Source of the DNA: Leptospiraceae bacterium
Lineage (GTDB): Bacteria; Spirochaetota; Leptospiria; Leptospirales; Leptospiraceae
DNA: 64,000 nucleotides
Assembly: GCA_015075105.1 (NCBI GenBank)
Contig: JABTUZ010000001.1
Coordinates: 1,065,001 to 1,129,000 of the forward strand
Reading direction: 5' to 3'
Below are positions 7,144 through 41,397 of this stretch, piece after piece. The notes under the pieces were generated by a model. That model saw only the letters and a program-made list of their open reading frames with translations. It was not told the DNA's origin and did no database searches. Made by a program: the position numbers and the translations under genes. Numbering within the stretch: the stretch's first letter is position 1; each line of letters opens with the position of its first letter.

Positions 7144-8850
7144 TCATACTGCTTTCTTTTTTAATAGCTCTTTTGCGTGTTCCATAGCACCTTTAGTGAT
7201 ATTTTCGCCTGAGATCATTTTGGCAAGCTCTTCTATTCGCTTAGAATTTGGTAAAGCAGTCACCTTAGTGAATGTTCTTCCATTCTGAACTTCTTTTTCT
7301 ACTTTCCAATGGTCTATACCGACTGCAGCAATTTGTTGTAAATGTGTAATTAGCACCACTTGATTTTCCTCCGAAATTTTCTTTAATTTTTCTGCAACTA
7401 TTGAAGCCGTTTCTCCTCCAAGCCCTGAATCGATCTCGTCAAAAATTAGAAGTTTATTAGAATTGTCTTTTTCTAATATCACTTTTAGCGAAAGCATGAC
7501 TCTTGACATCTCTCCGCCTGAAGCAATTTTTCTGAGAGGTCTCGGCTTTTCTCCTTGATTTGCACTAAAGTAGAATTCGATCTGATCCAATCCTTCTTCA
7601 GTTACAATGTATCTTTTTCCTCCTTCTGCAATTTCTCCTTCAGGACTTAGTTCCCACCTTAGTACAATTTGAAGTTTGGCATCTTTCATCCCAATTTCTG
7701 ATAATTCTTTTTGAAATTCATGTTCAAAGTTTGCGATTGCCTCCCTTCGAAGTTGAGATAATTTAACTGATTGTGAAGATAAAACTCCACACGAATTCAT
7801 CAACTCTGCATTTAATGATGAAATACTTTCTTCTCTAGTTAGAGAATTTTCTAAATCAGAGAGGATTCTTTTTCTATATTCAAGAATTTCAGGAATTGAT
7901 TTACCGTATTTCTTTTTTAATTTTCCTATTTCGGAAAGGCGATTTTGTATAGATTCTAATCTATCTTCAGAGAAAAAAACCTCATCTTTCTCGTCTGAAA
8001 TTTCCATATAGATTTCTTTTAGTCTTGTGAAAATTTCAATTAGCTCTTCCTTCTTTCCATTAAAATCAGGATGAATAGAAGAAATTTTCTCTGCAGAAGA
8101 AATGACTTTGGAAAAAGAACGAAAAATAGACTCTTCAGAATCTTCCAATAAATACGTTATTGTATTATAATTTTCAGATGCCTTTTCTCCAAAGATGAGT
8201 AGAGATTCTTCTCTCTGGAGATTTTCTTCTTCACCTTCTTTTAATTTTGCATTGTCAATTTCTTCAATTTGAAATTTCAAAAGATCAATTCTTTTTTTCT
8301 CTTCCTCTTCATTTTTGGACAACTCATCTAATCTTTTTTTAATTGCTTTGTAAGTGTGAAAATTTTCTTTTACGCATTTTTTTAAATTTACCAAATTGGC
8401 AAAATTATCAAGAATTCCGAGTTGTTTTGATTTATCCAATAAAAACAGTTGATCGTTTTGCCTGTGAACTTCGGCGAGGATTTGCCCAAATTCTCTTAAA
8501 TGTTGGAGTGGAGCCAAACTTCCACCAATCTGAATTCTGGCTTTTCCGTCTGAGTGCAATTCCTTTCTTAAAATTACTTCACCATTTTCGGAATCAAACC
8601 CCTTTTCTTTCAACCAATCTTTCGCTTCCGGTTTATTTGAAATATCAAAAATAGCCTCTATTTGGTACTTCTTTGCGCCTGTGCGTATATTCATTGTATT
8701 GCACCTACCACCAAGAACCGAAGCCAAAGAATCTAAAACAAGCGATTTACCGGAGCCTGTTTCTCCGGTTATTGCAGTTAGTCCATCCGTTAAGTTCAAA
8801 TCTAAATTCTCTATTAAAGCAAAGTCTTTCACAACAAGTCTCTTAAGCAT
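7144..8850 (-). CDS. recN: DNA repair protein RecN
   Basis: An SMC-like ATPase of about 568 residues used in double-strand-break repair. The Walker A motif TGETGSGKS lies near residues 30-40. A long coiled coil fills about 150-350. The ABC signature region (IASGGEMSRVMLSLK) and Walker B (LLIFDEIDSGLGG) lie near 440-480, with an H-loop in VVLITHLQQIA. I start at the ATG at 8850 rather than 8856, because the GGAG upstream is 7 bases from 8850 but only 1 from 8856. RecN is commonly SOS-induced; no clear operator was seen here. Confidence 0.92.
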   Translation of the reverse strand: MLKRLVVKDFALIENLDLNLTDGLTAITGETGSGKSLVLDSLASVLGGRCNTMNIRTGAKKYQIEAIFDISNKPEAKDWLKEKGFDSENGEVILRKELHSDGKARIQIGGSLAPLQHLREFGQILAEVHRQNDQLFLLDKSKQLGILDNFANLVNLKKCVKENFHTYKAIKKRLDELSKNEEEEKKRIDLLKFQIEEIDNAKLKEGEEENLQREESLLIFGEKASENYNTITYLLEDSEESIFRSFSKVISSAEKISSIHPDFNGKKEELIEIFTRLKEIYMEISDEKDEVFFSEDRLESIQNRLSEIGKLKKKYGKSIPEILEYRKRILSDLENSLTREESISSLNAELMNSCGVLSSQSVKLSQLRREAIANFEHEFQKELSEIGMKDAKLQIVLRWELSPEGEIAEGGKRYIVTEEGLDQIEFYFSANQGEKPRPLRKIASGGEMSRVMLSLKVILEKDNSNKLLIFDEIDSGLGGETASIVAEKLKKISEENQVVLITHLQQIAAVGIDHWKVEKEVQNGRTFTKVTALPNSKRIEELAKMISGENITKGAMEHAKELLKKKAV

Positions 8851-9024
8851 AAACATTCTCCATAACCATCATATATTTACTATACGGATTTTAGTCAATC
8901 AAAATTAAGTATTTTTTTGGTATGTTTTATTTTTTTTCAATATTGCTTGACTAACTATTGAGTATGGGGTTTTTCCTATTGAGGGAGGGAGCTTTGTAGG
9001 ACGAAAGTTTCGGGGCTTGCCATC

Positions 9025-9047: not shown

Positions 9048-11126
9048 CTATTCTGAGTATTTAATTGATAATTCGTCTTCAAATCCAAAAATTGTCAAGG
9101 CTTGTTTTATTCTGTCGAATTTGCCCATATTGTCAAAGTTGGTTTCAATAAAATATGTATCACTAATTGGAACAGCTTGTCTAAGTCCGCTTGCTTCAGG
9201 TGTTTTTGTCAAGCTAAGTCGGTCCCCAATTTCTGATGTAAAAAAGGTTTCTGGTTGCAAGTCAAATAGTTGCTTAAATACTTCAATATAAAGTTTTGAT
9301 ACTTGGGTAACATCAATTTTTTGATTGAAGAATATAGCATACTCTAACTTTTTGAATGTTGGGTCTTCTGCATCAAAAATGTTTATTTCGTCATTCGTTG
9401 CTTCGAGTTCAATGTCAATTTCAGGAATTTCCCAAATTTTAATAAAACGTTCCGAAATTGTATTAGCTCTCTTTTCAATTTCAGACTTATCCCACTTCGT
9501 TTTTTCTTTCAAATCTCTGTTTAGCCAAAGTCTGCTGAAAGTATAGCCTTGCTCTTTACCGTCAATGTTCATTACTTTCTTGTCAAGGAAAGGCTTGTTA
9601 CTTAATTTGCCGTTGTTGCCTGATAAAGTAAGATTGCCAATTGTGTTTAGGTAGTTTTCTTTTATCAAATTGTATTCGTCTGCACCTAATTCAATTTTCC
9701 ATTTTGGGTCAGGATTTTGAGGAAAAATATGTTCAATTGTTATGTCAGAATTTCCTTCAATAACTACTGGTTCGTTATTTTGAAAATTTTCAAGTCGTTC
9801 TAATAAATAGGTTCTATTTTTGGGTTTGATATTGTAAACGTCTTTTTCTTTTAGTGCGTTTATGGTTTCTGTATTTCTTGGAAAACGCTGAGCGCCTGAC
9901 CTTTGCAATAAAGATTTTTGAATTGAAAACAAATAATTGTTTGGCTCAACTTTGTCGTATAAGCCCATAAAGATTTTATTGAGTGCATTTGTCGGTAAGC
10001 CTAAAATGAAACGTCTGAATGTAAATGATTGAACAGTTGATAAAACTGAAATGGAAGTTCCTTTATCAATTATATCGTTTGAAAAATCTTCATAGACCTT
10101 CATTAAAAATGGAAATGCAACATTTATTTCTAATCTGTTGATGTATTCAAGTTGCGTGCGGATAAGTTTGTCGGGTTCATTTTTAGGATTAGTTAGTTTG
10201 TTGTAATATTTAACCAATGACTTTAATTCTGTAAGAACAAGCTCCAATTCGTCAATGGTAGAAGTAGGATATTTTTCTTTGAATTTTAAATAAACATCTC
10301 CTTTATTTGGAATTTCCTTGTTTTTAAGTGTTAAATAATCTCTAATAAATTCAGAAACTCTTGTTTTATTTAAGGTTTCGTCCTTTGCGTTTTTCTCGAT
10401 TACTTCCCAATAGCTTTTGTAAATTTTATCTTGATTTGTTCTTGATAATCCCATCAAAATATAATTTCTAATAAGGTCGGCTTGCGATAATTCAAGTCCA
10501 GTTGAATTCAAACATTCAAAAATTCTTTGTGGATTATCTTTTTGTCTGTCAAGTGCAATATCAACAAAAATTAGTTTTGAAAGTCCACGTTGGATAATTT
10601 CAAAGTTTTCCTTATTTATTACTGACCTGAAATAATCAAAGTTTTCAATGATTTTAGAGTAACCTTTAAATTCTTCTCCGTCCGTTGAATTGAGAATATG
10701 GCGAAGTGCTTCTTTGTTATTTTCGGTCGGTTTTAATTTTAGCTTTTCTTCTTCGGTTGCAAATTCTTTAATTAAATACGTTTTCTGAATTCGATTTACC
10801 AACATTTGGTTGTCCAATTGCTGTGCAAGTCTATAAAGTGCGATATAGATTAATGTAATCGTTGTAAGTCTTTGTTGTCCGTCAATTATGGTTAATTCCG
10901 TTAAGCCTGATGCAGTATAAATGTCATTGTGAACATAAACTATACTACCAATAAAGTGAGCATTGGTTTTTTCATTTTTGCCAGTTTCTAAAATGTCGTG
11001 AAGTAACTGTTTGCACTGTGTCAAAGTCCAATCGTAATTTCTTTGATAAACAGGAATGGCAAAAGTTGTTTCGTTAGTCGCTAAGAATTTATCTACTCTG
11101 GTTTCGTTCGCTTTCAATATATCCAA
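9048..11126 (-). CDS. DUF262/DUF1524 (GmrSD-like) protein
   Basis: The protein has 692 residues. The N-terminal DUF262 half shows IPVYQRNYDW (24-33) and DGQQRLTT (82-89), the motif of the nucleotide-sensing/hydrolysing ParB-like fold. The middle-to-C-terminal part has ITIEHIFPQNPDP followed by NTIGNLTLSGNNGKLSNKPF, the His-centred HNH-like DUF1524 motif. This fused arrangement is that of GmrSD-type modification-dependent restriction enzymes. It stands alone between recN and gltA with no methyltransferase or other defence gene nearby. The start is TTG at 11126; a second TTG at 11117 has better spacing from GGGG. An anti-phage role is inference from family. Confidence 0.8.
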   Translation of the reverse strand: MDILKANETRVDKFLATNETTFAIPVYQRNYDWTLTQCKQLLHDILETGKNEKTNAHFIGSIVYVHNDIYTASGLTELTIIDGQQRLTTITLIYIALYRLAQQLDNQMLVNRIQKTYLIKEFATEEEKLKLKPTENNKEALRHILNSTDGEEFKGYSKIIENFDYFRSVINKENFEIIQRGLSKLIFVDIALDRQKDNPQRIFECLNSTGLELSQADLIRNYILMGLSRTNQDKIYKSYWEVIEKNAKDETLNKTRVSEFIRDYLTLKNKEIPNKGDVYLKFKEKYPTSTIDELELVLTELKSLVKYYNKLTNPKNEPDKLIRTQLEYINRLEINVAFPFLMKVYEDFSNDIIDKGTSISVLSTVQSFTFRRFILGLPTNALNKIFMGLYDKVEPNNYLFSIQKSLLQRSGAQRFPRNTETINALKEKDVYNIKPKNRTYLLERLENFQNNEPVVIEGNSDITIEHIFPQNPDPKWKIELGADEYNLIKENYLNTIGNLTLSGNNGKLSNKPFLDKKVMNIDGKEQGYTFSRLWLNRDLKEKTKWDKSEIEKRANTISERFIKIWEIPEIDIELEATNDEINIFDAEDPTFKKLEYAIFFNQKIDVTQVSKLYIEVFKQLFDLQPETFFTSEIGDRLSLTKTPEASGLRQAVPISDTYFIETNFDNMGKFDRIKQALTIFGFEDELSIKYSE

Positions 11127-13707: not shown

Positions 13708-14619
13708 CTAATGAAATAGAGTAATATCGAGAATTAGAGCAAAAATAATTACCGGAAGATAAATTAAAGACCCATAATACACTTTTTTCACTTTGGAAAA
13801 GTCCCCGTCTTTGGTTTGCATTCCCGAGTAGGCTTCTTTGCTAAACCATACCCCGACAGCGAAGCTCACTACCCCATAAAATAGACCTGATACTCTAAAA
13901 TACAAAAGTAGAAGACTAACCGGAATCATTATAATAGAATAAATAAAGATTTGAGATTTTATGATAGATTCTTTTTTTATAGTCGGTAGAGCTTTTATAC
14001 CTGCAAACTGATATTCATCTTTTCTGATAAGTGCAATTGCAAGAAAATGTGGAATCTGCCATAAAAATAAAATTAGAAATAGGACAAGTCCGGGTTCACT
14101 AACCTTTCCGGTTGCAGATGTCCAACCTAAGAGTGGAGGAAATGCACCCGGAACTGCACCTATAAATAGTGCAATAGGAGATTTATACTTTAATGGAGTA
14201 TAAACCCAAACATAGAGTACTAAAGCAATTCCTGCGAGTAGTGTAGTAATTCGATTTACAAAAAAATACAAAATCAAAAGTGATAAAACACCAAGTACTA
14301 CCCCAAAAATTAGAGCAGTTTTGGAGCTTAATCTCTTGTCGGGCAAGGGCCTTTTTGAAGTTCTCTTCATCAGTGAGTCTGTATCTCTTTCGAGGTACAT
14401 ATTGAGTGTATTAGCCGAGGCTACAATAAGTGCAACCCCGAGCATGGAATACATTAAAACAGATGCAGAGAATTCTGCATTCGATAAATAAAAACCCCCA
14501 AGTGCCATAAGCACACTCATAAGAGTAATTCTTGGCTTACTTAAAAGAAGTAAATCTTTTAAAAAAAGTAGTCTTGAATTTTCTTTCAATTTATTAATCT
14601 CTATTGAGTCAGATGCCAT
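13708..14619 (-). CDS. ctaB: Protoheme IX farnesyltransferase (heme O synthase)
   Basis: This 303-residue UbiA-family membrane prenyltransferase adds a farnesyl group to heme b to give heme O. The first Asp-rich motif region reads NTLNMYLERDTDSLMKRTSKRPLP and the second is in WQIPHFLAIALIRKDEY, both typical of CtaB/CyoE. About nine membrane segments are visible. It overlaps the upstream fused cytochrome b gene by 19 bases and closes the heme-copper operon, implying that this enzyme uses an O- or A-type heme. No heme A synthase is in the window. Confidence 0.93.
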   Translation of the reverse strand: MASDSIEINKLKENSRLLFLKDLLLLSKPRITLMSVLMALGGFYLSNAEFSASVLMYSMLGVALIVASANTLNMYLERDTDSLMKRTSKRPLPDKRLSSKTALIFGVVLGVLSLLILYFFVNRITTLLAGIALVLYVWVYTPLKYKSPIALFIGAVPGAFPPLLGWTSATGKVSEPGLVLFLILFLWQIPHFLAIALIRKDEYQFAGIKALPTIKKESIIKSQIFIYSIIMIPVSLLLLYFRVSGLFYGVVSFAVGVWFSKEAYSGMQTKDGDFSKVKKVYYGSLIYLPVIIFALILDITLFH

Positions 14620-16742
14620 GTAAACCCGTTCAATTTATTAAATATGACTACATTACGAAATCCATTTTTAAATTCAATTTGTTTTGTATCCGTATAATCC
14701 CAATTTCCGTCAGATTTATCTCCAATCATAATCTGAACATTGTGTAACCCGTCTTTTTGGGAAATATATTCTATGGCAATACTATTTCCGTCTTTCCAAA
14801 TCCCTTGTGGAATATATGACTTATTTAGGATTTCTTTTCCGTCGATTAATATTTTCATCCTTACATTGGCTCTTGTTCTTTCGCAATGTACCGGTTTTCT
14901 CATGTGCATAGGTAATTTTTCAAGCTCTTCTTGGGTCAAAGTCCTGCAATTTTCACCTGCAAAACCAGGGTGCTTAAAACTGACTACGAGTTCACTATCT
15001 GAGTGCTTTAATAGATTGAAACGTAAATCACTAAAAAACCAAATTCCTACCCCGAAAAAAATCGTAATCAAAAAAGAAAAAATTCCAATTTTAGCGAGTC
15101 CATAAGGTTTTTTTTCGTATTTGGACTTTTGAGTTTTTCTGAAATCGGCTGCTTTCTTTTTTATATCCTGAAAGCCCAAAATAGACTTTTGAAGATAAAG
15201 AACCCTATTCTGGTTTTTGACTTCTTCTTTTAAGAAAGGTTTCCTGCCTTCAAAAATTCTTTTTTCTGTCCATGTTTGTCCTTCTCTATACGTTGCATTT
15301 CCATCGGCACAGGATACTACCATTATTCCGAGTACATTTTTAGATAGAAGTCTGTCTATCAAATGGGCGTGAACCCAACCTGCACAAGGAACTTGCATGA
15401 CTCGATAACCTTCGAAATCGGAAGATATACCTTTTTCTTTGTCATTCATTTTTATATTGAATGATTCTGAACAAACAAAGGCGATTAGCTCCTTGTCATT
15501 CGCTTTTTTCACAATTTCATCAGACCAAGTATCTACAATATCTTTCCCGTCTTTGACAGTAAGCCAAGGAATTCCTATACCATTTGTACTGCAAGATGCA
15601 TTGCATATACCACAGCCAACGCATAAGTCAGGATTGACCCATGCTACAGAATCAAAATGCTTCCCATCTGTTCTAGGAATCATGGATATTGCACTATACG
15701 GACAATCTACATAACATACCCTGCAAGCGTTGCACCTTTCAGGGATAACTACAGAAGGAATCACTTTTTCTTTTGCAAGCCACCAAGGAATAGTAAATAC
15801 GATAATCCCACCGAAAAACAATAAGCCCCATATTGCTCCCCCTGAGAGTCTGTCAAAAATATAGAGTGGAGCTAAATACCAATAGTCCATAGTAAAAGTA
15901 GTCGTAATTGTGTTCATTTTGGCAGGGATTTCATTCACTGCCGGCTTCCAGATTGACAATACAATCATAGAAACTAATAGCCAGATGATTGCATTCCTAC
16001 TTATAAAAAATTTGGACCTATTGAGCCTCGTGATATGGAGCCAAAGCGCAAAAGCCATCGCAAGCGGAAGTAACATGTGAAAGAAGAATACTACAAAAAA
16101 CAATAGAGTGTTAATATCAGAGTCAGTGAGAAAAGATCTGGATAAGGGGTCGGCAAAGATAGGAAGCAGGTCGAGTAATTTTGCAGTTCCAAGTGCTACT
16201 TCTTTTGCTCTCACATCCCATACTAACCAGTAACCGATCCAACCAATTAGCCAAAGCATACCAATAGAAAATAGCCCCGTAACCCATGCAAGCCATCTGG
16301 GTCCCGTAAATCTTTTTGAAAAAAATAGAGTAAGACCGTGTAGAGTTGCAAAAAATATGCAAACATCAGAGCTGTATCTGTGGAGGGAGCGAATAAGCTG
16401 GGCTGTGAAAAAATCTGACTTCATGTTTTCAAGTGAGCCATAAGCCTGATAAACACTCGGTATATACCATAAGAGTAAAAGTACGCCTGTAATCGCAGCA
16501 ATCAGAAAAGAAGTGTTTGCAATCGCACCGGCCTGTGCAATTGGATTAAAACTAACAGGAACAAATTTTGCTGAAATATTATTTAAAAAATCAAAAAATT
16601 CATGAAATGGTTTAAACAAAAATCCAAGCCTGACTTCAGGTAGGGCTGAATTGTTTTTTTTGGGCTGGTAGTTGAAATTCTCACTCGATGTTGAATTGGA
16701 ACTTTTCAAAGAGGGTTGTTCCTCTTCTATTTCTATACTCAT
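14601..16742 (-). CDS. Fused cytochrome b / two-cluster ferredoxin / MvhD-like protein
   Basis: A 713-residue three-part fusion. Residues about 70-320 are a cytochrome b N-terminal-type membrane domain with four heme ligands in two pairs 14 apart (His121/His135 and His222/His236). Residues 337-347 (CNACRVCYVDC) and 374-384 (CVGCGICNASC) bind two 4Fe-4S clusters. Residues about 415-530 resemble the MvhD/FlpD hydrogenase delta-subunit domain, with Cys424, Cys453 and Cys478. A last membrane helix (about 550-570) and an outside domain follow. It probably carries electrons between quinol, iron-sulphur carriers and the heme-copper enzyme encoded upstream; the direction is inference. Confidence 0.85.
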   Translation of the reverse strand: MSIEIEEEQPSLKSSNSTSSENFNYQPKKNNSALPEVRLGFLFKPFHEFFDFLNNISAKFVPVSFNPIAQAGAIANTSFLIAAITGVLLLLWYIPSVYQAYGSLENMKSDFFTAQLIRSLHRYSSDVCIFFATLHGLTLFFSKRFTGPRWLAWVTGLFSIGMLWLIGWIGYWLVWDVRAKEVALGTAKLLDLLPIFADPLSRSFLTDSDINTLLFFVVFFFHMLLPLAMAFALWLHITRLNRSKFFISRNAIIWLLVSMIVLSIWKPAVNEIPAKMNTITTTFTMDYWYLAPLYIFDRLSGGAIWGLLFFGGIIVFTIPWWLAKEKVIPSVVIPERCNACRVCYVDCPYSAISMIPRTDGKHFDSVAWVNPDLCVGCGICNASCSTNGIGIPWLTVKDGKDIVDTWSDEIVKKANDKELIAFVCSESFNIKMNDKEKGISSDFEGYRVMQVPCAGWVHAHLIDRLLSKNVLGIMVVSCADGNATYREGQTWTEKRIFEGRKPFLKEEVKNQNRVLYLQKSILGFQDIKKKAADFRKTQKSKYEKKPYGLAKIGIFSFLITIFFGVGIWFFSDLRFNLLKHSDSELVVSFKHPGFAGENCRTLTQEELEKLPMHMRKPVHCERTRANVRMKILIDGKEILNKSYIPQGIWKDGNSIAIEYISQKDGLHNVQIMIGDKSDGNWDYTDTKQIEFKNGFRNVVIFNKLNGFTWHLTQ

Positions 16743-16757
16743 TATTTTTCCTTAAAA

Positions 16758-17705
16758 TTAATTTATTTTTTCGTTTGCTAATAGTCGGACTGCTTCTTTC
16801 AACCACTTTTCTTGTAGTTCTCCCAAACTAAACCGATAGGCAATTTTGCCTTTTTTATCAATAACTACAAATAGGTTATTATGATCGATGTCCCCATTCT
16901 CAGAATTTTTTCTTCTTTCAAATGAATACTTGTCTAAAACTTTTTCTACTAAGATTGGGTCGCCATTTAAAAAATAAACTCCTGGCATATCCAGACCGTG
17001 TCCTTTTGCAGTTTTAGTCATTGTCTCTTTGGTTTCCTTTTGTGGGTCTAAAGTAATCGCTACTAATTTGACTTGGGATTTTTCTTTTTCGGTCAAAGAA
17101 TTTAATACTCTTTTCGCCTGAAATAAAATCGTAGGACAAGATTTACCACATGCAGTGTAAAATGATGTAATGATTAGAACTTGGTTTTTGAAATCAGAAA
17201 GTTGAACCTTGTGATTTCTGTGGTCAATGAATTGAAAATCGTGGGCAGGAATAGATGTTCTAAGTCCTTTTGCCGGAAATTCGTTGTTTACCGGTTGAAA
17301 AGAAGTTTCTGCAAGAACTGTGAAACCATATCCAAAAGAAAGCATAATAAGAAATGAAAAGATTGCGTAAGGAATTATTTTTTTTGGTTCTTTTGTGATA
17401 ACTTCCTTTAATTGATTTTTCCAAATAGTGCCGATGATAAGCATTAAAAATAATGGATCTAAAACGAGCATGACTACATAGATTGTTTTCATCTCGCCTG
17501 TTTCCGGATTATAACCAAAGCACCAGATTTTGAAATCTTTAGCAAAGCTGCCAGTTATATCATTTGTATCCGGGATAAATAAAACTACGCTAAATAATAG
17601 AGTAGTGAAAAAGAGCAGAAATAGCGCAAAAGAAGGAAATTTCCAGCTTGCGATCCAATCCGAAATAAATTCAATTGTGCTATTTTCGGCCCCTTTCTTA
17701 TTCAT
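16758..17705 (-). CDS. SCO1/SenC-family copper chaperone with extra membrane segments
   Basis: A 315-residue protein. Residues about 18-45, 80-100 and 110-130 are membrane segments; a thioredoxin-like SCO domain fills the rest. The copper-binding pair is in FYTACGKSCPTILF and the conserved His in DHNNLFVVIDKKGKIAYRF. SCO proteins deliver copper to, or reduce, the CuA site of subunit II. It lies between subunit I (16-base gap) and the fused cytochrome b. Usual SCO proteins have one membrane anchor, so the N-terminal part is an extension. Confidence 0.88.
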   Translation of the reverse strand: MNKKGAENSTIEFISDWIASWKFPSFALFLLFFTTLLFSVVLFIPDTNDITGSFAKDFKIWCFGYNPETGEMKTIYVVMLVLDPLFLMLIIGTIWKNQLKEVITKEPKKIIPYAIFSFLIMLSFGYGFTVLAETSFQPVNNEFPAKGLRTSIPAHDFQFIDHRNHKVQLSDFKNQVLIITSFYTACGKSCPTILFQAKRVLNSLTEKEKSQVKLVAITLDPQKETKETMTKTAKGHGLDMPGVYFLNGDPILVEKVLDKYSFERRKNSENGDIDHNNLFVVIDKKGKIAYRFSLGELQEKWLKEAVRLLANEKIN

Positions 17706-17721: not shown

Positions 17722-19461
17722 TTAACGAACGTACCAAACGTCTGCAAGAGCCTTCCAGTTTGCAAAATAATAAACTACAAAACTAACGAGTAGAATTATC
17801 ACAAGAACCATAGTTCCGGGAGTCTTGTGCTCTAATGCGCTAGTGTCTTTTTTAGAATCAGCAAGAGGTGCAACCTCTCCCCAACTCTCCATTGGCTTAC
17901 CTGCGTTGGATTTTCCAAAAAATACCGCAGCTACAGTTAGTAGCACAAAGATCAGTAAACCGGTGAATGCAATAATTCCACCTACGCCAAGCAGTCCAAG
18001 CCAGATATGAGCACCCGGATCTACACCTGCACTCAATTGTGCACCGGTAAATTCTACGTCCCAATGTCTTCTTGGTACACCGTAAGAGCCTGCAAATTGC
18101 ATTCCCATTAACATGGTTACAATTCCAACTGCAAAAATCAGAGGTTGAATCCTGGCTAATCCTTTCCAATAGTATTCTCTTTGGAAAATTAGTGGAACAA
18201 CATAATACGCAAGACCCATGAATGCAAGTGTAGTTCCACCAACTACTGTAGCGTGGAAGTGACCAGGAATTCTAAGAGTATTGTGTGCAATGATATTAAT
18301 CTGTTGGGTTCCAAGGGTTACACCTGTAATACCACCGATAAAACCAAAAATTACAAGAGACATGAATCCTGCGCTAAAAGCCGGATTTTTCCAAGGAGCG
18401 TTCAGTAGCCATCCAAATAAACCTTTGTCGTAACCTTTTTTTCTCATAGCCACTTCTAAAGATGCAGGAACTGTAAATCCATGAATCATGGAAGCAAGTA
18501 CAGCCAAATACATCGCATAAGAAGTATTCCATATTTTCCAAGAAGCACTCACACCAGGGTCAACAAGAGCGTGGTGAGCAGATGCTAAATTGATAAATAG
18601 AATGTAAAGAACGAAAGCTCCTCTACATACTGCTTGGTTTAACGGTCTTGCACCGGCAGCCATAGTCATAATTAAGTACCATACAGATACCATCGCTGTA
18701 ACATTAATTTGCTGAGAAGCGTGTCCAAGTCCCCACCAAATCATCCTGTACCAAACAGCATCCACTGTAAACCCTTGAATCCATCCGGTTGACCAGATAA
18801 ACGCAGCACCTACTGCAACAGCACCGTGTAAAATCGTGAATACCGCAATGATAGCAGCTGCAATAGCACCAAAAACTACTAATGGAACTGAGCCTTCGTA
18901 AGTTTTGTCTCTTTTTGCAATATATAAAGTAGCAAAAAAGTTAAACACTGCAATTAGTGCACCTACCGCAAATACTATAATCCCAAAATAAAAAAGCGGA
19001 TGAGCTTTTAATGGGATGTAAGATGTCATTAGAACATCTCCGTACCCACCAAGGATCATATAATCTACTAAGATTGAGCCTATTAGCATTAGTGCAAAGG
19101 AAGCCCATGCAACTCCTGCCGAGAATAACTTTGAATTTAGAAGAGTAGTACAAGTAAAATATAGAATTGCAACTTCCATAAATATAATCCAAAAGATTAA
19201 CATATTTAGACCATGGAAAGTTAGAAGTCTATAGTACCACTCTGCAGGAAGAAGGTGAACTGTAGGCCAACGAGTCAAAGCGATCAGTAGTGCCGCAATC
19301 CCACCTAAGAGTAGGAATACTACCGCCATTACTGCATTCAACTTTATAAATAGTTGAGCAGTCAAAGATACAGGTAAACCGGTAGTGTCACAAACCCTAG
19401 CTTCACTTGAACCGTAGTTCCCTTTTAAAAAACCAGCTATATTTAATGCCTTTGTTGTCAT
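17722..19461 (-). CDS. Heme-copper enzyme subunit I with active-site Tyr replaced by Gln (NO-reductase-like)
   Basis: A 579-residue integral membrane subunit I. All six metal-binding His are in place: His83 (low-spin heme), His247 and His296/His297 (CuB), His401 and His403 in GHFH (the two hemes). Oxygen reductases of the A and B types carry the cross-linked Tyr four residues after the first CuB His (HPxVY). Here the wording is GHASQQINV, giving Gln251 at that position. Loss of this Tyr is known in NO-reducing branches of the superfamily (bNOR/eNOR types), so nitric oxide reduction is favoured. It is followed by SCO and preceded by the CuA subunit with a 4-base gap. Usual automated naming would be cytochrome c oxidase subunit I. 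Confidence 0.85.
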   Translation of the reverse strand: MTTKALNIAGFLKGNYGSSEARVCDTTGLPVSLTAQLFIKLNAVMAVVFLLLGGIAALLIALTRWPTVHLLPAEWYYRLLTFHGLNMLIFWIIFMEVAILYFTCTTLLNSKLFSAGVAWASFALMLIGSILVDYMILGGYGDVLMTSYIPLKAHPLFYFGIIVFAVGALIAVFNFFATLYIAKRDKTYEGSVPLVVFGAIAAAIIAVFTILHGAVAVGAAFIWSTGWIQGFTVDAVWYRMIWWGLGHASQQINVTAMVSVWYLIMTMAAGARPLNQAVCRGAFVLYILFINLASAHHALVDPGVSASWKIWNTSYAMYLAVLASMIHGFTVPASLEVAMRKKGYDKGLFGWLLNAPWKNPAFSAGFMSLVIFGFIGGITGVTLGTQQINIIAHNTLRIPGHFHATVVGGTTLAFMGLAYYVVPLIFQREYYWKGLARIQPLIFAVGIVTMLMGMQFAGSYGVPRRHWDVEFTGAQLSAGVDPGAHIWLGLLGVGGIIAFTGLLIFVLLTVAAVFFGKSNAGKPMESWGEVAPLADSKKDTSALEHKTPGTMVLVIILLVSFVVYYFANWKALADVWYVR

Positions 19462-19465
19462 GTAT

Positions 19466-19990
19466 TTACTCCACTATTATTTTACCGGTCATCGTGTGAT
19501 GCCCGATACCGCAAAATTCGTTACAAACTATTTGATATTCTCCCTTTCTGGTAGGAGTCAGAGTTAATATGTGATCGTAGCCAGGAACAATTTGAAAATT
19601 CATATTCACGGGTAAGAGTGAAAAGCCATGCTGGAAATCTAAGGAAGAAATATGTACTTTATACTCTTGACCTTCTTTCAATTTTAAAATTGGAAACCAT
19701 TTCCAACCTGCACCTTGAAGGTAAGCATCTCCACCAGGGATCGGCTCTACAATAGGTACACCTTTTTCTTCTCCAACTTTACCTGCTTCTACAAACTTAG
19801 CTACCTGACCGGCAAAATCAGCACCTGATATTTTATACGCATGACCTGTGCTATTTTGCTTTCCTTTGAAATGCCAGTAGGGCATCATAATACTTAATAC
19901 GATACACCAAACTATTGCAAGTCCAATCCAAACTCTTTCTCCACCTTCTGGAGCTTTAAACCAATCTTTTGCTGGTACAAATATACTCAT
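19466..19990 (-). CDS. Heme-copper enzyme subunit II with CuA site
   Basis: The protein has 174 residues, with one membrane segment (about 20-38) and a cupredoxin domain. CuA ligands are complete: His121 in DFQHGFS, then Cys156, Cys160, His164 and Met167 in CNEFCGIGHHTM. It accepts electrons from a cytochrome or other carrier and passes them to subunit I. The single helix and short length match ba3-like small subunit II proteins rather than the two-helix aa3 type. A Gly/Glu-rich loop (about 60-90) is inserted before the core. Confidence 0.9.
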   Translation of the reverse strand: MSIFVPAKDWFKAPEGGERVWIGLAIVWCIVLSIMMPYWHFKGKQNSTGHAYKISGADFAGQVAKFVEAGKVGEEKGVPIVEPIPGGDAYLQGAGWKWFPILKLKEGQEYKVHISSLDFQHGFSLLPVNMNFQIVPGYDHILTLTPTRKGEYQIVCNEFCGIGHHTMTGKIIVE

Positions 19991-20158: not shown

Positions 20159-21583
20159 CTATTTTGAAACCAAATACTTGTCAAAGAATTTCAGATTTGA
20201 AATTCCTTTTTGCCTTTTTTTTTCGTTATAAGATTTGAAAATTAGTAGAATTGATTTTCCTGAATAAAATAAAAATATCAATCCACCTAAAATCGCTACA
20301 AATCCACCGATTCCCATGAGGCTCATACCGATATGATCCGAAAGAGTTTTCACTTGTTGTTCGTTTCCATACAACTTTCTTCCCATACCATTTAAGCCGG
20401 CAATCGCAAACCCTGCTGCAAACACCGCTTGACCTATACCAAAAATAAAAGGCTGAACTGAAATAAGTCTTGAAGTTTTTATTTCTTCATCGAATTCCCA
20501 AGACTCAAAAATTATAAATGTAAATGCCATAAATGATACTGTCACAGCACCTATAGAAGCATGGTAGTGAGCCGGAACCATTGTATTGGGTCCTTCTATT
20601 AAGGCTCCAAATGTAAATCCAAGAATAGTTAAAAATATACTGGATAAAAGTCCATTGACCCTTAGATCAAAAAAAGAATATTTGTTAAAGTTTTTATTTT
20701 TCCAAATAGAAAAAAGAAATATCGTAATAATGGCTAAGGTAAATGGAAATATCCCATATCGCATTAAAGTTGTAAAAAAATTCCTATAATCGTTTGAGGT
20801 TGTAGGTTGGGAAAAAACATAAGGGAGTGAAACAATTGCAGGGAATAAAAACAATAATAGAAAGTATCTGATCCATTTGCCTTGAGCAAAATGTTTTGTA
20901 GTAATGGAAGAAATTAAAAAGAACCAAACTGCTATTTTTGCAACTTCTGAAGAAAATTGAAGTAAGTGCCCCCCTCCCCATACTAAAACTTCATAATAAT
21001 GATCTGTAGCGATATCTTTAGATGTGTTCAAAATAGAAACAACCATAATTTCAATGGCAATTATAAAAAATACTACAGAGATTCTAATAGCTAATTGAGA
21101 TAAGTTTGATTCTTCTTCTTTGGATGGAATTACCCTTTTGTCTATAAATGTAAAAAATATTCCCATAAAAAAAAGTCCAAGCCCAACTAAATACACTGGA
21201 TGATCAATTACAGGGATATAGTTAGATAAAATAGGGTATGCGTTTGGAACTCCTGCAGAAAACACCATTAGACAAACACCTAATAGAGAAATAAAAAAAG
21301 AAGCTAACTTCCAGAGTTTTAGATCCCGACTACTCTTTAAAAAAACAAAAAAAATAGACGCTATAAAAGAATAAACCCAAACCGAAAGAGCTAAGTTGAC
21401 GTGAACTACAAGACATCTTTTGAAAAAAAGTGGATCGGTAATAAAAGGACTGAAAACTGGGATTCTTGCAATTACAAGTAGTAAGGACAATAGTCCTGCA
21501 AGAATTAAACTGCCAACTGAAAGCGTTAGCCATAAAAATGCGTAAGTCTTATCTTCCTTTAATTCACGGATTTCAAAAGACAC
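20159..21583 (-). CDS. Subunit I-like membrane protein lacking two CuB ligands
   Basis: A 474-residue protein with about 12 membrane segments and the general fold wording of heme-copper subunit I. Low-spin heme and high-spin heme positions are present (His61 in VVHVNLALSVW; His339 and His341 in PAHYHASIG), and His206 in GGGHLLQFS matches the first CuB ligand. The adjacent His-His pair that completes CuB is absent: the corresponding region reads LPYVFSQPTTSNDY. It therefore probably binds heme but is unlikely to form a normal heme-copper centre. It is the first gene of the operon, before the small subunit, so an accessory electron-transfer role or a divergent NorB-like enzyme are both possible. 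Confidence 0.72.
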   Translation of the reverse strand: MSFEIRELKEDKTYAFLWLTLSVGSLILAGLLSLLLVIARIPVFSPFITDPLFFKRCLVVHVNLALSVWVYSFIASIFFVFLKSSRDLKLWKLASFFISLLGVCLMVFSAGVPNAYPILSNYIPVIDHPVYLVGLGLFFMGIFFTFIDKRVIPSKEEESNLSQLAIRISVVFFIIAIEIMVVSILNTSKDIATDHYYEVLVWGGGHLLQFSSEVAKIAVWFFLISSITTKHFAQGKWIRYFLLLFLFPAIVSLPYVFSQPTTSNDYRNFFTTLMRYGIFPFTLAIITIFLFSIWKNKNFNKYSFFDLRVNGLLSSIFLTILGFTFGALIEGPNTMVPAHYHASIGAVTVSFMAFTFIIFESWEFDEEIKTSRLISVQPFIFGIGQAVFAAGFAIAGLNGMGRKLYGNEQQVKTLSDHIGMSLMGIGGFVAILGGLIFLFYSGKSILLIFKSYNEKKRQKGISNLKFFDKYLVSK

Positions 21584-37827: not shown

Positions 37828-40800
37828 CTAATTGTATGGTGCGTTGAAGAAGCTGTTTACAGGACATCCTGCTGTTCCGGCATCAATAATACTCATGCTC
37901 GGAGTTAGACAGAATATCTGCCACCATCTAGCTACTTGACCAGAGCCCACAGAGAATGTTCTTACAAGTCCTTGGGACTTGAATACTCGAATGGTAGCAC
38001 CAGATGTTGCCATTGAAGCTTCGTTACTCCAGTTGTAGATACTGTAACCAAGTCTTGGCTGAGTCCATGCACTTCCCTTTAGTGTCACTGTCTCAGGTCC
38101 GTAACCGGTAGTAATATCGTAGTCCAGAGTTATACCACCGCTTAGTTTATTCTTATCGTTCCAAACTGCCTGACATTTCTTTCCGCCATTTAAACAAGTA
38201 GAGTCGCCAAACTCTAAGTGAGAGTCTAAGTCTCTTGGAGTTGCATTCCAAGAAAGAACCACTCTCATCTCTGTATCGACCAATACCGGGCTAACCAAGA
38301 TATTCTGGTTAGCAGGGGTATCAGTTCCGGCAGAAATTACAGTCTTGAAGGCAGTTACTACACTAGCTCCTGAAACTTCAAGAGTATAGTTGCCAGGAGG
38401 AACTCCAGGAACTGCAAAAGTACCGTCAGAGCTGGTTGTTACAGCAGAAATCGTGTTACCATTGATATCTGTTGCGTAAGCACCATTCACTACGTTAATT
38501 CCAGGTCTCAAGCGAACTGTAAGGTTAGCTAATCCTGTATTGTTGAGAGCATTCAAAGCCCTTCCAGATATTGCCGCCGGTCCGTGAGAGCCAGGAACCA
38601 TAGTGATAATATCGAAGTTGGTAGTTACATCTTTTTGGATATTTACCAACCCTTCTACAGTTTTATATCCTGCAGCCACAAATCTCAACTTCCACTGGCC
38701 TGCATTGATATGGAATACGTCATACTTTGGCACATTCGCAAAAGAAGAGGATCCAGATGCAAGAGAAGCCGGTGAAATTCCATTAGACGGTCTAGCACCA
38801 GAGGTAGGATGAACCAATTCTAAGCTATAAGCTCCTGTAAATTGGAACCCACCGGGGAGTTTTACATACCCGCTCAAATTTCCAAAACCGGTATTCTCTG
38901 TTAGTTGAGTGTTGATAGCTACATCCGATGAAGAAGTTAGAGAAACAGAAATAAATGAATCTCCATATCCTGGTTTTGTAATTTTTAAGACATACTCACC
39001 TGGGTCAATATTATTGATCGAGTAAGCACCAACTGAATCAGTCGAAACTGCACCCACTAACTCATCAGAGCCGGGGATCAATCTTGAACTGGATGTGATT
39101 AAGTCATAGTCTTTGCGAACATTTGCCGAAAAATCCATAACACTTGGGTCAGAGCTTAAATTTCTTCCAAGTGTAACAGTTGCACCGTTAAGATTTTCAG
39201 TAGTAATCGAATTAGATACTTTTCCAGAAATCTTTCTTCTTGGCAAATGGAGAATCGTTGAAACTACATTGTGTGTTCCGTAAAGTGCAGTTCCCTCGTT
39301 GTCTGCTCTTGTAGATGATGCACTCAAGTGTCCGAGAGGATCCACTACAATTACAGCGTAAGAGCCTTGCTTGAACTGATATTTTCCTGCACTAACCTGA
39401 ACAGAATCAGTCACTGAAGGACCAGCTACACTCGGTGTAGAATCTAATCTCGTTGCAGAAGCATAATTTTGAATCGCATACCCAACTCTCTGAGTGTCGT
39501 TTGTAAATGAGTTAGATAGTTGGACTACCTTTGAATTTTCATCGAAAGCAAACTGCCCATTTGAATTTGTAACAGTAATATGAGCTACGGGTGCGTTGGA
39601 ATTATTTGAATTTCCTAGCATTACTACAAACATTCCGGGTAAACTGGTGCCTGCGTTTGTGTAGGTCGGTATAGCCCCTTGGTAAGCTCTTTTTGTTCCA
39701 GAGACCAAAGTATCCAATACAATTGCAACACCAGCAATTTGTGTTCTGTGTGTACTTGGAGTTAGAGTTACCGATGCCACAGTCAAATCAGTCCCGTTCA
39801 AAGTTATTGTAGCAGGTGATGTATTTTGATAGCCCGGAGCGGATACATAATACTGCCAAGCACCGGCAGCCGCAGTAAAATATACATTGGTTCCACTAAT
39901 TTCGTATAGTTTATTTTGGTAGGTATTGTAGTTACAGTAGTAGCCTGCGGTTCCTGTACACTGACCCACACCTGTTCCAATACACGAAGCGATTCCTGTA
40001 AGTTGCCCGTTCCAAGAAGGACATACTTCACGGATCCACATAGCTGCTAAATTTTTCAATCTATCATCGGACCCTGCGAGTAGATAGGCTAACTGAGCCG
40101 GTGTAGTAGTCTTATCCGGTCTGAAGTTGATTACAGCCCCAGGTACTGGTGAAACTAACCCGTCTGTTACACTACCTGTAATCGAAGAAGGTTTAGGCAC
40201 AACTTTAATAGCTGCAACAGAAACATTCTTTACGTTTGAGCCACCCGAAGGATGAGCACTAAATAAGAAAGACACAGAGGCAGTCAAGAAATTGGTTCTT
40301 GTAACTTCAATGTAATAAACCCCGTTAGCCAAAGTATTGGAAAAGCTGTAATTTCCGCTACCATCTGGAGTTGCTGTAGCGACTACACTTCCATTGGAAT
40401 CTTTTAAAGTTACGACATAAGAAGAGTAACTGTTGTCTCCCTGAATAGCTGCATTAGACACAGAGCCTGTAATGAGACCAGAGCTTGAACTGGCTACATC
40501 CCATGCAAGTTGTGCGTTTGCAATAGAAACCGGAGTGGTTATGGCAGGGTTATTTCCGGCAAATACAAATCTGAAAGGAATTGTTTGATTTTCAAATGGT
40601 CTTCCATTTTGAGATATAGAATCACCATTTATTTGAACCGTATAATTTCCATTAGGTAGATTTGCCAAGGAAAAAGAATAATTTCCGCTTGCATTGGTTG
40701 TAGTACTTGATACCACATTCCCATTGGAATCAAGTAACTTTATGGAAACTCCATTCAATCCACCGGCAGGAATTACTACAATATTGTTATATCCGGGAGT

Positions 40801-41397
40801 TTTTACTGTTCCGGAGATTAAAGCAGGACCGCTTGTGTAAAACAATCTCTCTGCGTGCATGGCAGGTATATCGACTGCAGTATAAGACCCGGAGGCAGGA
40901 TTGTAAGTAAAATTAAAATCTTGATAGGTGTAATTCGCACCAAATCCGGATTGAATCAGCACTCTATAGTTTTCATTGTGTAGATTGGAGATATCAAATG
41001 TATAGTTACCGTTTTCATCAAGATAGGTAGTGCTGATCACTGTTCCGTCGGCAGAAACCAATTGTACTTGAATTGCAGTAAGATCTACATCATTGGTAGG
41101 GTCTAAATCTGAATTAACATTCACCCCACCCAATACAACATCTATACTACCTGTAATTCTCGCTGGACCGGAAGTTGGATTCTCTTGTTGAGCAGCAGAA
41201 CTTCCACTACTTGCTGGAAGGGGTACACCGTTTGCGTCGGTTTGTGTACCGCTTGAGCCTGTTGTCCCACTACCCATTAATAACAGGGGCCATAACGGCA
41301 TTCCTTTTTTCTTACCGCCACAACCTACGACGGCAAAAATCAGAATCAGTGAGAAAATAAAATATCTATAGGGAGACCCTATTGTTTTCGTTTTCAT
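37828..41397 (-). CDS. Large surface lipoprotein with repeated carboxypeptidase-regulatory-like domains
   Basis: A 1189-residue protein. The N-terminus ends in AVVGC (Cys26), a lipobox. A Gly/Ser linker follows (about 40-75). Then come at least six Ig-like domains of the CarboxypepD_reg/SdrD-B type, each with D-x-N/S-G-x-Y-x-F/I wording (for example DENGNYTFDISNL, NASGNYSFSLANLPNGNYTV, DGSGNYSF). The last 130 residues look like a DUF2135/YfaP-type domain, starting LSWNATPRDLDSHLEFGDST. It is probably exposed on the cell surface; ligand unknown. It is a single-gene unit with its own terminator. Confidence 0.82.
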   Translation of the reverse strand: MKTKTIGSPYRYFIFSLILIFAVVGCGGKKKGMPLWPLLLMGSGTTGSSGTQTDANGVPLPASSGSSAAQQENPTSGPARITGSIDVVLGGVNVNSDLDPTNDVDLTAIQVQLVSADGTVISTTYLDENGNYTFDISNLHNENYRVLIQSGFGANYTYQDFNFTYNPASGSYTAVDIPAMHAERLFYTSGPALISGTVKTPGYNNIVVIPAGGLNGVSIKLLDSNGNVVSSTTTNASGNYSFSLANLPNGNYTVQINGDSISQNGRPFENQTIPFRFVFAGNNPAITTPVSIANAQLAWDVASSSSGLITGSVSNAAIQGDNSYSSYVVTLKDSNGSVVATATPDGSGNYSFSNTLANGVYYIEVTRTNFLTASVSFLFSAHPSGGSNVKNVSVAAIKVVPKPSSITGSVTDGLVSPVPGAVINFRPDKTTTPAQLAYLLAGSDDRLKNLAAMWIREVCPSWNGQLTGIASCIGTGVGQCTGTAGYYCNYNTYQNKLYEISGTNVYFTAAAGAWQYYVSAPGYQNTSPATITLNGTDLTVASVTLTPSTHRTQIAGVAIVLDTLVSGTKRAYQGAIPTYTNAGTSLPGMFVVMLGNSNNSNAPVAHITVTNSNGQFAFDENSKVVQLSNSFTNDTQRVGYAIQNYASATRLDSTPSVAGPSVTDSVQVSAGKYQFKQGSYAVIVVDPLGHLSASSTRADNEGTALYGTHNVVSTILHLPRRKISGKVSNSITTENLNGATVTLGRNLSSDPSVMDFSANVRKDYDLITSSSRLIPGSDELVGAVSTDSVGAYSINNIDPGEYVLKITKPGYGDSFISVSLTSSSDVAINTQLTENTGFGNLSGYVKLPGGFQFTGAYSLELVHPTSGARPSNGISPASLASGSSSFANVPKYDVFHINAGQWKLRFVAAGYKTVEGLVNIQKDVTTNFDIITMVPGSHGPAAISGRALNALNNTGLANLTVRLRPGINVVNGAYATDINGNTISAVTTSSDGTFAVPGVPPGNYTLEVSGASVVTAFKTVISAGTDTPANQNILVSPVLVDTEMRVVLSWNATPRDLDSHLEFGDSTCLNGGKKCQAVWNDKNKLSGGITLDYDITTGYGPETVTLKGSAWTQPRLGYSIYNWSNEASMATSGATIRVFKSQGLVRTFSVGSGQVARWWQIFCLTPSMSIIDAGTAGCPVNSFFNAPYN

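Follow-up and report, generated by a model that had tools for sequence, protein, structure and literature searches.

Gene content of the locus

The window, a 64,000-nucleotide stretch of a Leptospiraceae genome (contig JABTUZ010000001.1, positions 1,065,001 to 1,129,000), carries an operon built around a heme-copper subunit I that resembles NO reductases of the eNOR type (Table 1). The original prediction had placed a CuA subunit, a IIa-like subunit, SCO and heme O synthase beside this gene, and we confirmed all four. To these we added a cytochrome b fusion protein and a second COX1-like gene.

Table 1. Predicted products of the operon in order of transcription (positions in the window)
Product	Position	Strand	Remarks
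COX1-like (HCO-like) accessory protein	20159..21583	-	474 aa; first gene of the operon
IIa-like peptide, single helix	20004..20144	-	46 aa; read directly from the sequence
Putative eNOR subunit II, CuA cupredoxin, motif CNEFCGIGHHTM	19466..19990	-	Directly upstream of subunit I
Putative eNOR subunit I, heme-copper catalytic subunit	17722..19461	-	579 aa; Gln251 at the active-site Tyr position
SCO-type copper chaperone	16758..17705	-	N-terminal membrane segments
Cytochrome b/b6 - two [4Fe-4S] - FlpD-like fusion	14601..16742	-	
Heme O synthase (CyoE/CtaB)	13708..14619	-	

We scanned 84,980 species genomes and obtained 218 relatives of subunit I, of which the best 80, with identities of 63-77%, were kept. 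These belong to Leptospiraceae, Myxococcota/Deltaproteobacteria, Verrucomicrobia, Balneolaceae/Rhodothermales, Planctomycetota and other groups. Using tblastn on the loci of these best 80 relatives, short contigs included, we recovered subunit II in all 80; SCO was found in 75 of them, the cytochrome b protein in 70, and the order of the operon was common to many phyla among the sampled loci.

The residues expected to hold metals and clusters are strongly conserved across the operon. H121, C156, E158, C160, H164 and M167 of subunit II are invariant in 80 sequences, and the four His and eight cluster Cys of the cytochrome b fusion are invariant in 64. C186 and C190 of the SCO protein (CxxxC) do not vary either. 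RME88945.1, which appears in an appendix table of PMC8756737, has a comparable set of domains (PRK03735, DMSOR beta-like, FlpD). The fusion protein is most likely the electron-transfer partner of the enzyme.

Elsewhere in the window, a GmrSD-type restriction endonuclease with both its N and C domains (9048-11126, minus strand) adjoins an SMC/AAA-type ATPase gene (7144-8856). A 1189-aa protein with several carboxypeptidase-regulatory/SdrD-B-like repeat domains is encoded at 37828-41397 on the minus strand.

Active site of subunit I and its assignment

Subunit I matched the COX1 domain profile PF00115 with 212 bits, and its closest solved structure, also by fold search, was the Thermus ba3 oxidase (E 3e-45; about 26% identity in the structural match). 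We numbered the alignment to Thermus thermophilus ba3 by placing known ba3 residues in register. The ba3 ligands H72, H233, H282/H283 and H384/H386 correspond to H83, H247, H296/H297 and H401/H403, and the Arg pair R449/R450 corresponds to R464/R465. The CuB helix reads GLGHASQQINV, so that the cross-linked Tyr of B-family oxygen reductases (ba3 Y237) is absent and Q251 stands in its place. Two central claims of the original prediction, that all six metal ligands are present and that HASQQ replaces HPxVY in the CuB helix, are thus borne out.

The six ligand His and Gln250-Gln251 are found in 81 of 81 sequences (the window protein and the best 80 of its 218 relatives), and Gln251 is therefore neither a sequencing error nor a chance substitution. 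At the ba3 proton-channel positions, Tyr248 and Ser309 are kept as Y262 and S324, Tyr244 is replaced by Val258 and Thr312 by His327. A single proton channel has been predicted for eNOR in the literature. AlphaFold modelled parts of the active-site helices of subunit I with moderate confidence.

The published criterion for eNOR is a Gln at this position of the alignment; oxygen reductases have Tyr there, cNOR and qNOR have Glu, sNOR and CuANOR have Asn, and gNOR has Asp (PMC8756737). PMC11388526, citing Murali et al. 2024, counts eNOR among the biochemically characterised NORs. Because the Gln is diagnostic of eNOR and the family is reported as characterised, the original proposal of a NO reductase is supported, and the grouping of the window protein with other Gln proteins points the same way. 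In our tree, which used named plasmid relatives as outgroups and contained no characterised eNOR, bNOR, sNOR or gNOR sequence, a 96/91 branch divides the Gln proteins from the Tyr-bearing B-family oxidases. The Gln side includes the window protein, Defluviimonas, Thermomicrobium roseum and Thermus thermophilus plasmid proteins, and a Rhodothermales relative (66% identity) also falls within this clade. On the Tyr side are Halobaculum, Haloarcula, Natrialba, Deinococcus, Methylobacterium, Sinorhizobium, Variovorax, Geobacillus and the Thermus ba3 oxidase. Placement inside an O2-reducing clade had been raised earlier as a point against a NO reductase, and the window protein lies outside the sampled O2-reducing clade.

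Taken together, we consider it very likely, judging from sequence, that the gene product is the catalytic subunit of an eNOR, the only recognisable heme-copper NOR of its host, most likely linking NirK to NosZ. The eNORs, bacterial NO reductases recognised only recently, are relatives of the B-family (ba3-like) oxygen reductases. The enzyme type is already known and the gene is a further member of it. The type is said to be that of Hemp and Gennis in 2008 and of Murali and colleagues in 2024. Known eNORs share with the window enzyme the Gln for Tyr, the six ligands, a CuA subunit II directly upstream and an association with NirK and NosZ; only the host lineage (Leptospirales) is unusual, and the COX1-like gene occurs in many, not all, eNOR loci. 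CuANOR/bNOR and sNOR are likewise proved or proposed CuA-type NO reductases with a Tyr-less active site, but in them Asn takes the place of the Tyr (PMC8756737, Table A4). The cNOR and qNOR enzymes belong to the same superfamily and reduce NO at a heme-metal center, as we propose here, but they carry Glu (same table) and take electrons from cytochrome c or quinol, whereas the window enzyme is ba3-like and has a CuA subunit.

Gln-type subunit I genes on two Thermus thermophilus plasmids (L090 and L091) are annotated as cbb3 or b(o/a)3 oxidases and are probably eNORs. In their helix X the usual GHFH has become GHFK: Lys replaces the second His, a heme ligand elsewhere.

Role of the enzyme in the host

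The host, a relative of Leptospira (Leptospirales), has a nearly complete genome of 3.42 Mb. Its three COX1-family genes are an A-family oxidase with HPEVY, the eNOR and the COX1-like neighbor; the genome therefore has no cNOR, qNOR or cbb3. It does encode NirK (370.8 bits against a cut-off of 296.3) and NosZ (890 bits against 625; clade II, Sec-dependent type), both located elsewhere in the genome, outside the eNOR operon. NirS was not found in the host genome. The eNOR is the only recognisable heme-copper NOR of the genome and, together with NirK and NosZ, fits a pathway from nitrite to N2. A chain from NirK through eNOR to NosZ is the most economical and most likely reading of these genes.

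In the proposed mechanism, electrons would enter at CuA of subunit II, probably by way of the cytochrome b/Fe-S protein, and pass to the low-spin heme (His83/His403) and on to the high-spin heme (His401) and CuB (His247, His296, His297). There, two NO would be joined (2 NO + 2 H+ + 2 e- -> N2O + H2O), with Gln251 in place of the Tyr that serves oxidases as electron and proton donor for O2 splitting. We infer NO as the substrate, along with the electron route and the uptake of protons. Within the chain, NirK would supply the NO and NosZ would take up the N2O.

The enzyme might still be an oxygen reductase in which the Gln is tolerated, or in which another Tyr substitutes, as in helix VII of cbb3 enzymes. 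The ba3 fold and the complete set of ba3 metal ligands agree with this, and Tyr262, Tyr286, Tyr315 and Tyr318 are conserved. We take the cbb3 helix-VII site to lie about six residues before the His-His pair, as in the P. stutzeri enzyme. A Tyr at this site, the second point raised against the original prediction, is absent from the window protein, which has Ile290/Asn291 there, both invariant or nearly so among the 81 sequences; Tyr286 lies ten residues before His-His. The Gln clade also stands apart from the Tyr oxidases in the tree, and the host already has its own A-family oxidase. Taken as a whole, we regard an oxygen reductase as highly improbable, though the eNOR may reduce some O2 as a side reaction.

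A rather less remote alternative is that the enzyme reduces NO for detoxification instead of as a respiratory step of denitrification. On the Thermus plasmids, genes for an Rrf2 regulator and a DUF542 protein, two gene types linked to NO stress, flank the eNOR. Among the loci of the best 80 of 218 relatives, DUF542 relatives lie near 4 and Rrf2 relatives near 12. Against a detoxifying role, the host's NirK and NosZ imply that NO is made internally and that N2O can be used, and a respiratory chain is suggested by the CuA subunit and the dedicated cytochrome b partner. NirK relatives lie near 8 of the same 80 loci, the Thermus plasmid eNOR also has a NirK-like multicopper oxidase beside it, and an eNOR and nirK share one operon in Ardenticatena maritima (PMC4653789). 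The evidence favors a denitrification role for the window eNOR, and we consider pure detoxification unlikely. No close eNOR was found in the seven other genomes of the host family that were compared.

The host is a Leptospirales bacterium with NirK, eNOR and NosZ but without a classical NOR. eNORs are frequently annotated as cytochrome c oxidases, and denitrification and N2O production are therefore overlooked in many genomes.

The CuB-less COX1-like neighbor

The first gene of the operon encodes a full heme-copper fold (AlphaFold mean pLDDT 91), with Foldseek matches to ba3, bo3, cbb3 and cNOR. All of 68 aligned sequences have H61, H206, H339 and H341, and Arg402-Lys403 is nearly invariant. 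The heme-ligand His are kept (H61, H339, H341), but no His position is conserved in helix VII of the same 68 sequences, the His-His pair having been lost. H206 is thus the only CuB ligand left, where a catalytic subunit is recognised by three. By homology, the protein could bind both hemes and no CuB. Its profile stands closer to eNOR subunit I (about 1e-34) than to ba3 (about 1e-8), although these values come from databases of different size. The protein sits on a long branch, and the tree does not separate an origin from within eNOR from an earlier one.

Most of the sampled loci have the gene upstream of eNOR subunit II. Of 103 genomes from the order to which the Pelagicoccus genome belongs, 8 encode the protein, each with an adjacent eNOR-scoring match, and in six of these eight matches we read the Gln motif. 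Of 129 genomes from the order of a Balneolaceae genome, 15 have the protein, 13 of them beside an eNOR; two divergent forms without an eNOR match come from Balneolales (G160 and G165), and one genome (G172) has a second copy apart from its eNOR locus. eNORs without the gene include those of three Spirochaetota loci (L115-L117), some Rhodothermales, Bacteroidetes and Verrucomicrobia relatives, and the plasmid eNORs. We therefore rejected both a strict dependence of the protein on eNOR, given the G160, G165 and G172 copies, and a constant need of eNOR for the protein, given the loci that lack it. The two are strongly linked, and the protein is neither strictly required for nor exclusive to eNOR.

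The literature examined yielded no description of this protein, although the primary eNOR paper may contain one. As a conserved eNOR partner, it may be the only part of the operon that is new. We tentatively suggest a dedicated CuB-less diheme partner of eNOR, serving as an electron-transfer (e.g. quinol-oxidising), NO-binding or assembly subunit, though we hold this specific role to be somewhat doubtful. If true, such eNORs would pair a catalytic with a non-catalytic heme-copper fold in a single complex. The protein raises the question of how eNOR is supplied with electrons or assembled.

Stand-alone, divergent CuB-less copies with no adjacent eNOR gene were observed at three Balneolales loci (L112:8875-10275, L113:9294-10556 and L114:8745-10097), and a DUF6448 gene lies near two of the three.
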